This document shows, piece after piece, positions 49,741 to 53,926 of a stretch of 64,000 nt of DNA. Both the position numbers and the translations under genes were made by a program. The first letter of the stretch is position 1. Every line of letters begins with the position of its first letter. Source of the stretch: Flavobacterium sp. CG_23.5 (lineage in GTDB: Bacteria; Bacteroidota; Bacteroidia; Flavobacteriales; Flavobacteriaceae); the NCBI RefSeq assembly GCF_017875765.1, contig NZ_JAGGNA010000001.1, positions 248,001 through 312,000 of the forward strand. Reading direction: 5' to 3'. The notes beneath the pieces were generated by a model. The model made no database searches. It was given only the letters and a program-made list of their open reading frames with translations, and had not been told where the DNA came from.

Positions 49741-50322
49741 TTATAGTTTACTGATTTCTTTTCTAATTCTGCTTAATGTACTGTCTGTAATTCCTAAATA
49801 AGAAGCTATAATTTTAAGAGGAACATGTTGAAAAATAAGTGGCTGTAGTTTTAAAAGGTTTAAATACCTTGTTTCTGCTTTTTGACTTGCCATTTCAATT
49901 ACTCGGTCGTTTAGTTTATAGTAATTGATAACAAATAAAAGCCGGCTAAACTCCCTGAATTCCGCGATGTTATGAAAGTTTTTTTGTACATTTTCTAAGG
50001 AAGTTTCCCATAGTATGCAGTCAGTCAAGGTTTGATAGATTTCTTTTGTAGGTTGTTTTTTAAAGAAGGATAAAAAGTCATTTACAAAACAAGGCGCTGA
50101 ATAGATGTTAGTTGTAACTTCATTATTATCTTCATCCAGAATATAGGAGCGCATATATCCTTTCTCTAAAAAATATGTTTTTGTGCTGATCGTGTCTTGA
50201 TCCAGCAGTGTAGTATTCTTATCTAATGCAAAATCACAGAACGTTTCCGTAATTTTTTCCACGATTTCTTTTTGGATTGGAAACAAAGAATGGAAATAAT
50301 TGTTAAGTATCGATTTGTCCAT
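49741..50322 (-). CDS. Crp/Fnr family transcriptional regulator (paralogue 1)
   Basis: 193 aa. N-terminal cyclic-nucleotide-binding-like beta roll (about 25-115: NTTLLDQDTISTKTYFLEKGYMRSYIL) and a C-terminal helix-turn-helix (LKIIASYLGITDSTLSRIRKEISK). The cNMP-binding Arg-Ser pair of classical CRP is not evident, so the ligand is unknown. Its 5' side abuts the 349-bp repeat, copy A; a second paralogue sits in the same relation to copy B. Confidence 0.9.
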   Translation of the reverse strand: MDKSILNNYFHSLFPIQKEIVEKITETFCDFALDKNTTLLDQDTISTKTYFLEKGYMRSYILDEDNNEVTTNIYSAPCFVNDFLSFFKKQPTKEIYQTLTDCILWETSLENVQKNFHNIAEFREFSRLLFVINYYKLNDRVIEMASQKAETRYLNLLKLQPLIFQHVPLKIIASYLGITDSTLSRIRKEISKL

Positions 50323-50344
50323 TAATTTGGTTTTTCAATTTCAT

Positions 50345-50536
50345 GTATAACGTCAGCGTGTGTAAAACGCGCCATAGAACTTAATTTGGAGCAAATATAG
50401 TTGATTTGTTGTGCCAAAAAGGAATTGCTTTAAAAACCGACCTCCGGTTCCGTTCAAACGCGGGTTAATTACTTCGTCTGTTCGCTATCGCTCGGGTGTT
50501 GGCTTTGCGAGCGCAACGAATACTTAGTTGTTAGCA
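50345..50536 (-). repeat. attC-like spacer A
   Basis: On the minus strand it runs from CTGCTAACAACTAAG (overlapping the stop of the gene remnant) to CGCTGACGTTATAC, just before the Crp/Fnr gene. The outer TAAC/GTTA and the inner CGTTGCG / CGCTGACG boxes are complementary with a bulge. The end core GTTATAC deviates from GTTRRRY at one position. Confidence 0.45.
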
Positions 50537-50620
50537 GCCGCTTTTATTAATTTTTTTAATTCTTTGAAAGCGTCAATTTGTTTCTCTCTAGAATGTACTT
50601 GCATTGTGTACCCGCATTGC
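50524..50620 (-). pseudogene. C-terminal remnant of a lost gene (copy A)
   Basis: Reading frame ending at TAA (50524-50526) encodes about 30 residues including CGYTMQVHSREKQIDAF and KELKKLIKAAANN. The coding-like composition and the stop codon overlapping the palindromic spacer suggest the tail of a gene whose body is gone. The same tail (KASANN) is present in repeat copy B, so the truncation came before the duplication. Confidence 0.5.
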
Positions 50621-50651
50621 AAATGCTACGATTTTGTTTTTAAAGAAAGGA

Positions 50652-50729: not shown

Positions 50730-51356
50730 TCAATTCCACTTTTCTATTTTTTGTGGTTTTTTATTTGCAATCAATAACTGTTTCCCAGCTAAAATAAGAA
50801 TAAATAAATACAAGGCGATGAAAATAATCCGTTGCGATATACCTGGTGTGTTTTCTGAAACAAAACTCATCGCTACTATCATTATAAAAGGTATTAAGAA
50901 AGTAGAAATTGCCGTATTTTTCCAAATGTTATTCTTTTTGAGTTGCCACCATAAAGTCAAAGCACATAGTAGCCAAAAAACAGCTCCTCCAACTGCTCCA
51001 ACCGAGTGAATAATTGTACTAATCGATTTTTTATTTTCCATATTGGCTGGAGATAATCCTGCAAGAGTTAGAAACAATCCAGATAAAATTAATAAATAAA
51101 ACGGGTATGATTTTATAGAATATGAACGAAATTCCTTCATAAGGTTAAAACTGAAAATTGCTATGAGAATTCCTGGTATAATGAATCCCAGTATGTTAAA
51201 TATCCATTTGTTTTCAGCATCAGTTGATCCTAGTTCACTTACAGCTTTATGAAAGTGATTGTAACCATCAGTTCTTAGTCCTGCCATTATGATAATAGTT
51301 GATACCCCAACCACAACAGCAGTAATTCCAATTAATCCATTAGTCTTATTATTCAT
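50730..51356 (-). CDS. DUF998 family membrane protein
   Basis: 208 aa with six predicted transmembrane helices. The family is recognised from GLIGITAVVVGVSTIIIMAGLRTDGYNHFHKAVSELGSTDAENKWIFN at the start, plus AGLSPAN and THSVGAVGGAVFW-type segment IHSVGAVGGAVFWLLCA. Function unknown. ATG at 51356 chosen because DUF998 begins there. It is 55 nt downstream of the second Crp/Fnr gene on the same strand, so co-transcription and control by it are likely. Confidence 0.87.
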   Translation of the reverse strand: MNNKTNGLIGITAVVVGVSTIIIMAGLRTDGYNHFHKAVSELGSTDAENKWIFNILGFIIPGILIAIFSFNLMKEFRSYSIKSYPFYLLILSGLFLTLAGLSPANMENKKSISTIIHSVGAVGGAVFWLLCALTLWWQLKKNNIWKNTAISTFLIPFIMIVAMSFVSENTPGISQRIIFIALYLFILILAGKQLLIANKKPQKIEKWN

Positions 51357-51411
51357 TCTTTGTTTTTTCTTCAAAGATATGAGCTTATAAAAAAACATTT
51401 TTTGATCTATG

Positions 51412-51987
51412 TCAAAAAAAGACTATTTTGGCACGTATTCGGCTCAATGTTTCTTGTGTAATTCCTAAATATGAGGATAGCATCCCAAGTGGTACTCTTG
51501 ACAATATGTTTTTAGACGTGTTGCAAAAGAATTGATACTTCTCTGTGGCTGTATGAAATTGCATCGAAATTATTCTTTCTGACTTTTGAATAAAGTATTT
51601 GGAGATTAAAATTCTACCAAATCGCTCCATTTCGGGAAATTCCTTAAAACACTTTTCAAGTTGTAAAACATTAATGGCAATTAGTTCTGCCTTTTCTAAT
51701 GTTTCTATGTAGCAGTTGTCGGGAACATTTTTCATAAAACTATAAATAGAAGTAATCCATTCTCCTTCAGCTGAAAAATTGTCGGTTATTTCCTTTTCGT
51801 CTTTTTTATAGAAAACTCGTAATAGACCTGATTTTATGAAATAAGTATTTTCACAAATTCTGTTTGGTCTATGCAAAAACTTTCCTTTTTCAATGATTTT
51901 TGTACTAGAAATTTCTTCCAGTCGTTTTGTTAATTCTTTTGAAACAGGAATGAAGCTTTTGATATGATCTACTAATATTTCTATCAT
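51412..51987 (-). CDS. Crp/Fnr family transcriptional regulator (paralogue 2)
   Basis: 191 aa. Same architecture as the copy at 49741: cyclic-nucleotide-binding-like N terminus (IEKGKFLHRPNRICENTYFIKSGLLRVFYKKDEKEITDNF) and C-terminal HTH (PLGMLSSYLGITQETLSRIRAKI). The two proteins are clearly diverged, while their upstream DNA is almost identical. That suggests the flanking repeat, not the gene, was recently duplicated or exchanged. It precedes the DUF998 gene by 55 nt. Confidence 0.9.
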   Translation of the reverse strand: MIEILVDHIKSFIPVSKELTKRLEEISSTKIIEKGKFLHRPNRICENTYFIKSGLLRVFYKKDEKEITDNFSAEGEWITSIYSFMKNVPDNCYIETLEKAELIAINVLQLEKCFKEFPEMERFGRILISKYFIQKSERIISMQFHTATEKYQFFCNTSKNILSRVPLGMLSSYLGITQETLSRIRAKIVFF

Positions 51988-51997
51988 TTACGAATTA

Positions 51998-52346
51998 GGT
52001 TTTTCAATTGCATGTCTAACGTCAGCGTGTATAAAAAGCTCCTTAGAACTTAATTTGGAGCAAATATAGTTGATTTGTAGTGCCAAAAAGGAATTGCTTT
52101 AAAAACCGACCTCCGGTTCCGTTCAAACGCGGGTTAATTACTTCGTCTGTTCGCTATCGCTCGGGTGTTGGCTTTGCGAGCGCAACGAATACTTAGTTGT
52201 TAGCAGACGCTTTTATTAATTTTTTTAATTCTTTGAAAGCGTCAATTTGTTTCTCTCTAGAATGTACTTGCATTGTGTACCCGCATTGCAAATGCTACGA
52301 TTTCGTTTTTAAAGAAAGGAGGTACTCGTTGCAAACGAGCACCAGA
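51998..52346. repeat. 349-bp direct repeat, copy B
   Basis: Partner of 50329-50677. Contains an attC-like spacer (52014-52205), the gene remnant tail (stop at 52193-52195) and the REP-like hairpin (52321-52343), in the same order as copy A. Confidence 0.93.
52014..52205 (-). repeat. attC-like spacer B
   Basis: On the minus strand it ends GCTGACGTTAGACATG, where GTTAGAC fits the attC core GTTRRRY exactly. The other end is CTGCTAACAACTAAG. The 192-nt span is longer than typical attC sites. The end lies 27 nt before the Crp/Fnr start codon. Confidence 0.5.
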
Positions 52347-52351
52347 GTGGG

Positions 52352-52380
52352 GCAACGAATCATTAGTTGTTAACTGCAGT
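52352..52380 (-). repeat. Isolated attC-like arm downstream of the HEPN-like gene
   Basis: On the minus strand, GCAGTTAACAACTAATGATTCGTTGC follows the HEPN-like gene. It matches the arm in spacers A and B (TAACAACTAAGTATTCGTTGC), but is cut off after 25 nt where the REP-like hairpin of repeat B begins. Confidence 0.45.
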
Positions 52381-52381
52381 A

Positions 52382-53032
52382 TTAATATCGATTATACCAA
52401 TCACTTACAAAGCAACAAAGTGAAAGGGCTTTAAGACTATTTATTTCTGTTCCGTAATTTTTGTCTTCTCCATGCATTACCGCATGTCTATTTAATTTGC
52501 TAAAGTATTTTGACTTTTTAACTTTAATAGAAGGAACATTTAATGGACAATCATCTTTTAAAAGACTCACGAAATCTGGATTTCTTTTTTTGTCTAAGTG
52601 CTTATCAAGATTTTGTCGATTATGAAAGATTTTGCCATCAATCATTCCGTCTCCTTGCGACAAGAAAAGAATTGTTGACGAATAATACATTTTGTTTTTG
52701 TGAGCCAGAAAAGCTTCTTTAAAAATGTTTTCCCTCTCTGAGTGTTTTGAAATTAATTTTGCCTCAATACTCTTGATGTTTTTTTTATAAAATTCAATCA
52801 GTGATTTTTCAGCAGTTTCTATTTCGTCGTTTTTAATTAGTTTAATCGTTTCAGACAATTTTCTCATTTCAATATCACTTGAAATATACCATCCATAGTT
52901 CAATAATATTTCAGTGTTTTCAGTCATCGAAGGATTTGATATGTCTAAAGCTTTAGACAAAATCGCCGAGATTCCTCCAATCTTTTCAATTTCCTCTGCT
53001 ATTTTGTTTAAGTTGTTCAAAGCTAAATTCAT
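52382..53032 (-). CDS. Hypothetical protein with C-terminal HEPN/Abi-C-like motif
   Basis: 216 aa, helix-rich, no signal peptide. I do not recognise the N-terminal region. Near the C terminus, LNRHAVMHGEDKNYGTEINSLKALSLCCF fits the NRHxxxHG segment of HEPN and Abi-C-like domains, with an R-x4-H motif at about residues 182-187. HEPN R-x4-6-H motifs are ribonuclease sites in many toxins and abortive-infection proteins. A defence or toxin role is inference only. ATG at 53032 is preferred to a TTG at 53059. It is flanked by attC-like sequences on both sides. Confidence 0.7.
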   Translation of the reverse strand: MNLALNNLNKIAEEIEKIGGISAILSKALDISNPSMTENTEILLNYGWYISSDIEMRKLSETIKLIKNDEIETAEKSLIEFYKKNIKSIEAKLISKHSERENIFKEAFLAHKNKMYYSSTILFLSQGDGMIDGKIFHNRQNLDKHLDKKRNPDFVSLLKDDCPLNVPSIKVKKSKYFSKLNRHAVMHGEDKNYGTEINSLKALSLCCFVSDWYNRY

Positions 53033-53065
53033 ATTTTTAGTTTCGTAGTGTTTTTTCAATATTGC

Positions 53066-53199
53066 AGTTAACGTCCATGCCGCTTGGCGATGTGGCGGAT
53101 TAAGGAAGCCTAATCTTTCGGTTAATGACTAATTTTCCAAGTACAAAACTATCTTCAAATTAAGCCAAATCCCGCCATATTGCCAAACGACGGTTAGCC
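53066..53199 (-). repeat. attC-like imperfect palindrome between two orphan genes
   Basis: 133 nt. Outer elements TAACGTC (53069-53075) and GACGGTTA (53089-region mirrored at 53189-53196) pair with one bulged base. Inner 15-bp arms TTGGCGATGTGGCGG (53084-53098) and CCGCCATATTGCCAA (53172-53186) pair with two G-U. The central 70 nt are unpaired. On the minus strand the ends read GGCTAAC and GTTAACT. Length, bulge and unpaired centre resemble integron attC sites such as VCR. Confidence 0.6.
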
Positions 53200-53206
53200 G
53201 TTGTTT

Positions 53207-53689
53207 TTATTTTTTAATTCTGTTTTCGGTTATGTTTTGGCTTTTCAAAGTAATAATTGGCTTAAATAATACTTTTTCACAAGCGTAACAATTTTCAATT
53301 CTGTATTGTTCAAACTTACCAAACTTTGTTTTATAAAATTCATGTCCGCTTTTCTCAATTTCGAATTCCGCATAACAATAGCCAATTGGCAGATCTAATG
53401 GAGTATGAAACCAATCTATTCTTGATTTTTCATAAAACTTGAAGTTTCCATTTTTGTCGGTTTTAACACTTTCAGTTCTTAAATCTCTTGATTCATTCGA
53501 GCCAATTTTTTCATTTATGAAATATTCTTTTTCAATTCTGTAAACTGTTGCGTTGAAAACAGGCATATTGTTTTCGTCAATTACCTTTCCTTCAATATTT
53601 GCCTCAAAAATTACTTTCTGAGGATGAATGAAAATTCCAATTAATAAAATTAGAAAAAACATTAAAATAATTTTGGTTGATTTTTTCAT
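53207..53689 (-). CDS. Exported or membrane-anchored protein with a carboxypeptidase-regulatory-like fold
   Basis: 160 aa. Hydrophobic N terminus (about residues 5-22; signal peptide or anchor), then FEANIEGKVIDENNMPVFNATVYRI and SVKTDKNGNFKFYEKS. This is the classic pattern of a CarboxypepD_reg/CNA-B-like beta-sandwich (GxVxDxxxxPVxxAxV, TDxxGxF). Four later Cys may be structural. No known function. It is flanked by attC-like ends: AACGGCTAAC at its 3' side and the same motif in inverse at its 5' side (about 53714-53723). Confidence 0.75.
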   Translation of the reverse strand: MKKSTKIILMFFLILLIGIFIHPQKVIFEANIEGKVIDENNMPVFNATVYRIEKEYFINEKIGSNESRDLRTESVKTDKNGNFKFYEKSRIDWFHTPLDLPIGYCYAEFEIEKSGHEFYKTKFGKFEQYRIENCYACEKVLFKPIITLKSQNITENRIKK

Positions 53690-53832
53690 TTTTCGTTTCG
53701 TTCAGGTAAAATAACGGCTAACTCGTACATAACATCAAATGTATACATCTTTTTTGGTGTTTTTTCTAAATTTGAAATTTTTTTCTTGTTAAATAATTCT
53801 TGTTGGTGTTGAGATGTAATATACCCTCTCAT

Positions 53833-53926
53833 TAGCCCTGATCGAGGCGGCATCCTCGCAGTGTAACGGAGAGATATAGCCGAGAGCAGGAGGGATGGTT
53901 GTTCTGGAAATAATTATTTCTGCTCC
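53833..53926 (-). repeat. Dispersed GGAGCTA...GGGCTA element, copy e
   Basis: 94 nt, minus strand. Begins AGGAGCAGAAATAATTATTT and ends GAGGATGCCGCCTCGATCAGGGCTA. The right block keeps the GGATGCCGC form seen in some relatives. It starts about 15 nt beyond the DUF808 terminator. Confidence 0.65.

Follow-up and report, generated by a model that had tools for sequence, protein, structure and literature searches.

Integrons that pair the integrase IntI with attC sites are known in their general features from class 1 integrons and the Vibrio cholerae superintegron. The known IntI proteins grip their hairpin sites by a segment that is missing from the short integrases described below. In the integrons of Treponema, the integrase, a true IntI, is co-oriented with its cassettes. 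According to the parts of PMC4792948 used here, the 20-residue I2 domain of IntI accommodates extrahelical attC bases, has not been identified elsewhere and may, through its acquisition, have enabled the recognition of single-stranded sites. For Bacteroidetes, the complete integron named in the IntegronFinder 2.0 paper, likewise in extract, is that of Salinibacter ruber M1. The extract of PMC8138268 allows for integron-like recombinases that lack the insertion, so that the integrase family described here may already stand in a published tree, its arrays undescribed. Among the matches listed in a search of the open literature (subscription journals and preprints lay outside its scope), no title or abstract opening concerned such a system, and PMC7370490 contained none of the terms sought.

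Here we analyze a palindrome in the window, the whole 64,000-nt stretch of Flavobacterium sp. CG_23.5 DNA under study, which occupies positions 248001-312000 of a genome that is a single contig of 3.67 Mb. With a probability of about 0.9, we take positions 53069-53196 to represent an attC-like recombination site that belongs to an integron-like system present in Flavobacterium and other Bacteroidota. The system resembles IntI integrons in its integrase beside an attI-like site, its co-oriented, mostly single-gene, orphan cassettes, a 3′ hairpin that travels with the gene, a break between G and TT (G-TT) and a bottom strand predicted to fold better. It differs in that the integrase lacks the IntI segment and often carries an extra N-terminal stretch, the core reads GTT(R)N6A where theirs reads GTTRRRY, the two ends of a cassette pair along roughly 14 nt, A.C/G.T positions recur, a promoter-like motif is present in part of the loops, and the integrase usually lies upstream of the array and co-oriented with it, whereas theirs is divergent. 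One-way reading of integrase and cassettes is shared with the Treponema integrons, which, unlike this system, have a true IntI. Cassettes without an adjoining integrase, as in the window, recall CALIN, but these comprise at least two close attC sites without an integrase, and a single site in the window matches our covariance model. The short integrases have the fold of XerA, XerC and XerD, with NF040815 (XerA_Arch) scores of 192-214 bits, below the cut-off of 220, in all five proteins scored; they differ from four Xer-type sequences, which fall into a clade of their own (100/99) and have no C-terminal SPLD-like motif.

Results

The sequence-only reading had described an attC-like palindrome with inner arms, TAAC/GTTA ends and an unpaired centre, all of which are present, the site proper being 53069-53196 on the minus strand. 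It is the one match in the window, at E<=1, to R1, a covariance model built from such sites, and itself belonged to the R1 training set; the other window junctions are degenerate. BLAST relatives of the palindrome were found in 38 of the 100 genomes searched, its own included. The 15-nt inverted ends reported around gene 53207 (53193-53207 and 53708-53722) are there, and a second pair, which the first reading had left unnamed, brackets gene 52382 (52369-52383 and 53058-53072). The quoted ends GGCTAAC and GTTAACT do not fit the consensus RYYYAAC/GTTRRRY to which they had been compared. The spacers at 50345 and 52014, suggested along with 53066 as the basis of a custom model, are copies of one another that have no R1 match at E<=1 (repeat D1, 50324-50623 and 51993-52292, 97% identical over 300 nt), and so are not of equal quality as sites. 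In repeat D1, the right half is unpaired and what looks like the remnant of a truncated cassette is present; pieces of the repeat occur elsewhere in the genome. The absence of an integrase from the window was borne out: the best tblastn match of 23 integrases had an E-value of 0.045 and lay elsewhere than at the attI-like relic. In the window, an attI-like relic is followed by two clean cassettes and by degenerate ones, with no integrase (Table 1). A Pfam scan assigned no family to the cassette 2 gene and none at E<=0.001 to that of cassette 1, which has two sub-cutoff carboxypeptidase-regulatory-like matches at E<=0.01; PADLOC gave no match for five window genes.

Table 1. Features of the array in the window, in the order in which the minus strand reads them
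Feature	Position	Strand	Details
attI-like relic, ...TTATGTACGA followed by GTTAGCC; at start of array, no adjoining integrase	53723..53752	-	27/30 bases identical to the stretch after the L061 long integrase
Cassette 1 body, GTTAGCCGTTATTT...AAACAACGGCTAAC	53193..53722	-	gene 53207-53689, 160 aa; inverted ends 13/14, A.C at position 11
attC-like hairpin site between cassettes 1 and 2	53069..53196	-	R1 112.7 bits, E 3.8e-22
Cassette 2 body, GTTAACTGCAATAT...ATACTGCAGTTAAC	52369..53072	-	gene 52382-53059 (TTG start; from ATG 52382-53032); inverted ends 13/14, A.C at position 11
Degenerate junction	52021..52368	-	begins like a left arm, then an apparent remnant of a truncated cassette, another TAAC and a right half to CGCTGAC followed by GTTA without matching left arm; no R1 match at E<=1
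Cassette 3-like stretch, starts GTTAGACATGC	50730..52020	-	cNMP-binding, Crp/Fnr-like gene at 51412-51987 and DUF998 gene at 50730-51398; reading the sequence revealed no 3′ end to match
Degenerate right half, second copy, to CGCTGAC followed by GTTA	50352..50529	-	within repeat D1
Cassette 4-like stretch	49741..50351	-	cNMP-binding, Crp/Fnr-like gene at 49741-50322; likewise no 3′ end to match was seen

Single-sequence folding was tried as proof of the site and dropped, the folding energy of the palindrome being within chance (z -0.81 and -1.25, not significant). The case therefore rests on comparison among sites, and what goes beyond chance is a covarying hairpin family, not the folding energy of a single palindrome. 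Aligned over 135 columns, 36 hairpins share 24 pairs, of which 18 change on both sides, the four TAAC/GTTA pairs and one further T-A pair are invariant, and one is non-standard, mostly A.C, in 35 of the 36 hairpins. Their covariation score was 0.590, against 0.149 ± 0.013 in 500 shuffles, none of which scored as high, and at most 0.119 in slid versions; preselection of the hairpins by pairing score introduces a bias towards pairing, and the slid and shuffled controls still lie far below. Across these 36 sites, structure is conserved over sequence, as in attC-type sites.

Fold and loop counts used 89 distinct hairpins, 45 cassettes without a scored hairpin being omitted; a hairpin score threshold of 34 was too strict, retaining 32 of 135, and a threshold of 28 with a bonus retained 90 of 135. 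For the excised form, folding predicts greater stability of the bottom strand in 83 of the 89 hairpins and of the top strand in 6 (median difference 3.6 kcal/mol), compared with a 45 to 44 split in random windows, and the folded bottom strand is thus predicted to be favoured. The motif TAnnTTTG, which we take to be the Bacteroidetes -7 element, occurs in the loops on the cassette strand in 23 of the 89 and on the other strand in 3 (mean 5.2 and maximum 12 in 200 shuffles). Its relaxed form TAnnTT(T/A/G)G occurs in 39 and 4, respectively (shuffles: mean 10.6, maximum 18), and 27 of these 43 occurrences end 47-55 nt before the end of the hairpin. The strict motif, missing from most loops, may have a promoter role.

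Relatives of gene 53207 (82-92%) are found in seven other Flavobacterium records, the named ones being Flavobacterium or Flavobacteria. In six of the seven, the DNA match starts at the G of GTTAGCC or, in L040, where the attI-like sequence matches too, nine bases earlier; in L045 it is limited to the gene, yet GTTAGCC precedes the gene, and the closing end of the cassette 1 unit was not seen there. The closing end GGCTAAC is present in four records (L039, L041, L042, L043) and altered in L040 and L044. Four records keep both ends between other neighbours, and outside the unit the neighbours differ. The hairpin after the unit also differs among records, with reservations for L044, in which the alignment extends about 96 nt into it, and for L041 and L042, with short, weaker hairpin matches.

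When GTTA...TAAC pairs complementary over 14 bases were sought, dozens of units came up, their end sequences differing from one unit to another; position 11 holds a near-fixed mismatch, for which the coding strand has A in the 5′ end and C in the 3′ end. Across species, units open with GTT(R)N6A and close with the complement, CN6(Y)AAC. Counted with nested pairs included, this end signature was found 57 times in the window and 20 array loci, 25 times at 20 loci taken for their integrase, 40 times at 20 further short-integrase loci of the phylum, once in a Chryseobacterium plasmid stretch and never at 20 true-IntI loci, the reversed-sequence controls giving 0, 1, 0, 0 and 0, respectively; the array loci had been selected for a relative of the palindrome, and the integrase loci irrespective of arrays. 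Irrespective of this signature, in pairs whose inverted ends match perfectly over 10 bases, A.C occupies position 11 in 77 of 94 cases from the Flavobacterium set and the plasmid, in 36 of 45 from the second set and in 1 of 41 at true-IntI loci. The canonical core RYYYAAC/GTTRRRY was present in 6 of 135 units at each end, these units having been preselected for GTTA/TAAC ends. The core is GTT(R)N6A...CN6(Y)AAC rather than GTTRRRY/RYYYAAC.

Within genomes, all eight pairs of duplicates with bodies at least 90% identical, six of which derive from four copies in L159, share 93-100% of the downstream 118 nt and 52-90% of the upstream 118 nt. Two species of one genus (L156 and L157) have in common a 1059-nt unit, 97.6% identical, whose first base is the G of GTTGG. 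In each species the unit stands directly at the attI-like site of an integrase, the two integrases being 47% alike; it includes the 3′ hairpin and stops at the following GTTA, past which the two have different cassettes. Together with the within-genome duplicates, this unit reads as the integron pattern. A mobile unit running from GTTA through the gene to TAAC, without the hairpin, had been suggested by the differing hairpins that follow the same gene across species, and was dropped because the duplicates and L156/L157 show the downstream hairpin travelling with the gene. Between species, however, the hairpin of the gene-53207 unit does not keep to its gene, the bodies being 89-94% identical and the hairpins 58-76%; this tells against a simple account, and conversion or another exchange must also act. 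Judged by sequence, the units represent gene cassettes, most of which have a single main ORF, that run from GTT(R)N6A to CN6(Y)AAC and are followed by a 110-190 nt hairpin that moves along; each consists of a gene and its 3′ attC, in one orientation, with the break at G-TT.

The longest ORF (ATG starts) of 135 units runs in the direction of the unit in 111 and opposite to it in 5, with 19 lacking an ORF of 60 aa, and has a median length of 201 aa, or 91% of the body. No Pfam family was detected at E 1e-4 in 16 of 20 scanned cassette proteins. One cassette of the own genome (L048, 7651-8448) encodes a TIR/SEFIR protein with a PADLOC bSEFIR match (defence).

The layout was surveyed at 44 integrase loci, three picked for palindromes and the rest for their integrase, covering 362 kb upstream and 337 kb downstream. 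Once nested pairs are left out, the downstream side holds 110 units that read with the integrase and the upstream side 7 that read against it, the other two combinations of side and direction giving 0 and 0, against 5 units in all in the reversed-sequence control; with nested pairs counted, the numbers are 118 and 8. Co-oriented downstream units occur at 31 of the 44 loci. The strict scan gave no downstream unit at the other 13, six of the 44 having less than 1 kb downstream; the own-genome integrase is among these 13, yet R1 gives five sites there. The seven upstream, opposite units belong to L085 and L150, which have the classical integron layout, L150 with one downstream unit as well.

A loose attI-like pattern, A/T-rich sequence and then an A followed by GTT(R)N6A, lies 36-174 nt past the stop codon of 29 of 43 integrases, and is also found in 162 of 2000 random 200-nt pieces, for which reason a strict, TATA-type form was used; this follows 21 of 43 integrases, against 14 of 2000 random pieces. 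By sequence, the arrays run away from an adjoining tyrosine recombinase, often from an attI-like A-GTT site. A Chryseobacterium plasmid (L127, 10001-20123) carries a short integrase and then R1 sites and Crp/Fnr-like genes, so that the system occurs on a plasmid too.

In 100 relatives, TIGR02249 gave no match above its cut-off, and strong split matches to tyrosine recombinases of roughly 350 aa. Whole-protein TIGR02249 scores of five such short integrases were 200-217 bits (cut-off 265). The KxxKDR to HxLRH distance is 55-66 residues in short integrases (45 of 46 measured), 100 in IntI (18 of 21) and 66-68 in Xer (3 of 4). The short integrases thus lack a segment of IntI, about 41 residues long, which from its place would include I2, the IntI-specific insertion. 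Catalytic residues are invariant or nearly so in a 35-row alignment, and the C-terminal SPLD-like motif is carried by 41 of the 46 short integrases, by 10 of the 21 IntI and by 0 of the 4 Xer. In a 71-row tree, built without L095, the 21 IntI form one clade (100/100) and the four Xer-type proteins another (100/99), with 45 short integrases outside both; the short integrases as a single clade, tested jointly with an IS91-linked integrase, had a p-AU of 0.389 and appeared in 0% of 200 bootstrap trees. By these tests, the system does not belong to the IntI integrons. The predicted integrase model (pLDDT 83.9, pTM 0.58) has a small N-terminal beta-alpha unit, a helical domain and a catalytic domain, and its best PDB match with Foldseek is the integron integrase 2a3v (TM 0.62 by query length).

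Longer integrases of 552-584 aa, with a long N-terminal extension, were observed in L061 (111-1865), L083, L086 and L159, where the attI-like pattern lies 39-47 nt past the stop codon. True IntI above the TIGR02249 cut-off were found in 84 of 296 genomes of the phylum, all but G134 among the matches listed being outside the window's class.

A covariance model and a search for a recombinase beside such a site had been suggested as checks, and both gave matches. R1, whose counts per genome are lower bounds, finds at least 20 sites in the own genome, at least 7 of them on the plus strand after its integrase, an open frame at 1281766-1282809 that has its own array about 1 Mb from the window on the same chromosome. 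A second, broken recombinase gene with two stops (1297008-1297520) lies shortly past that array. Including the own genome, R1 matches 64 of 100 relatives (53 of 61 within the genus, 11 of 39 outside it), and it matches 142 of 198 sampled genomes, in 93 of 120 genera, of the class Bacteroidia. At E<=1 there were 93 matches in 300 kb of array and short-integrase loci, counting six training sites and a few opposite-strand echoes, against 3 weak ones in 322 kb of true-IntI loci. These three (L143 6124-6248, L141 5936-6052 and L141 6982-7098; E 8e-4 to 0.09) are perhaps ordinary attC sites of similar fold. The 33 genomes of the genus with a strong short-integrase match have a median of at least 18 sites and the 28 without one a median of at least 4 (p 0.0013, the strength threshold having been fixed after the scores were seen), so that integrase presence predicts site number only moderately.

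Occurrence of the palindrome at a fixed place in related strains, with the same flanking genes, would have told against a mobile origin. In six relatives, the loci of the DUF808 gene that flanks the array (107 kb), three of which also hold clpB within the examined stretch, gave no R1 site at E<=0.01. The array genes, too, had no match there at E 1e-8, save 28-30% Crp/Fnr-like matches about 7 kb off in L190. Unit boundaries, for their part, coincide with the GTT core in the relatives of gene 53207, in the duplicates and in L156/L157, and the proposal of a cassette-like array with a divergent core accords with both observations.

Discussion

Layout and mobile unit are strongly supported as integron-like by the sequence comparisons, recombination activity being inferred. 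The recombinase would join the folded bottom strand of a hairpin to attI or to another hairpin at G-TT, and the cassette, gene and 3′ hairpin together, would thereby be excised as a circle or inserted. Coding-strand A.C mismatches would become G.T wobbles in the bottom strand, the better folder, and its better folding would set the polarity of insertion; in part of the loops a promoter-like motif, TAnnTTTG, may drive the next cassette.

The first reading had allowed for a different mobile system that converged on the same form. As to ancestry this is possible, the integrases falling outside the sampled IntI clade and lacking the IntI segment. An ordinary integron or CALIN of the IntI kind, in which only the core has diverged, would share the layout of integrase, attI-like site and co-oriented cassettes with 3′ hairpins, and could claim both the 2a3v fold match and the SPLD-like motif (41 of 46 short integrases and 10 of 21 IntI, against 0 of 4 Xer). 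We consider it improbable in view of that missing segment, the position of the short integrases outside the sampled IntI clade (100/100), the TIGR02249 scores of five proteins (200-217 bits against a cut-off of 265), the core consensus, which 6 of 135 units show at each end, and the 20 true-IntI loci, with zero end signatures and 3 weak R1 matches in 322 kb. That the host XerC/XerD act on the hairpin sites, as with Xer-exploiting integrative elements, and that the adjoining recombinase is a passenger would agree with the kinship of the short integrases to Xer in sequence and fold and with arrays in genomes without a strong short-integrase match; arrays that begin beside a dedicated integrase, with fixed polarity, make this very improbable. 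Single genes flanked by inverted ends might also suggest inverted-repeat or insertion-sequence elements with terminal repeats that start with GTTA by chance, an explanation that is barely credible for ends that vary from unit to unit and pair mutually, instead of forming constant terminal repeats, for units separated by hairpins and for a polarity fixed relative to the integrase.

The integron-like reading leaves two fates for the window array, which would be mobile only if the integrase elsewhere in the genome works in trans, and would otherwise be a stranded remnant, built by this system and now without an acting recombinase. The latter, compatible with the integron-like reading, is a real prospect at somewhat below even odds: the window holds an attI-like relic and no integrase, and the junctions at 52021-52368 and 50352-50529 are degenerate, but the open-frame integrase with its own array in the same chromosome could act in trans.

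At even odds, we propose a second integron lineage, widespread in Bacteroidia, whose recombinase, without the IntI insertion, would act on folded single-stranded hairpins, the strand being encoded by A.C (coding) versus G.T (bottom) pairs and not by extrahelical bases. It may be independent of IntI or reflect the state from which IntI arose, and many of its hairpins may hold a promoter that serves the next cassette. An integrase lacking the I2 region, in a cassette system of integron layout, would make the I2-acquisition idea directly testable. If the proposal is true, a large store of mobile, mostly orphan genes may have been missed in Bacteroidia, for which R1 offers a means of finding such arrays (142 of 198 genomes, against Salinibacter ruber M1 named in the extract of IntegronFinder 2.0).

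A search for an Rfam family for the palindrome returned three matches at E<=10, none of them attC-like. Between the array start and the DUF808 gene, the window contains a Flavo-1 RNA match at 53830-53897 on the plus strand (38.9 bits; gathering threshold 42).
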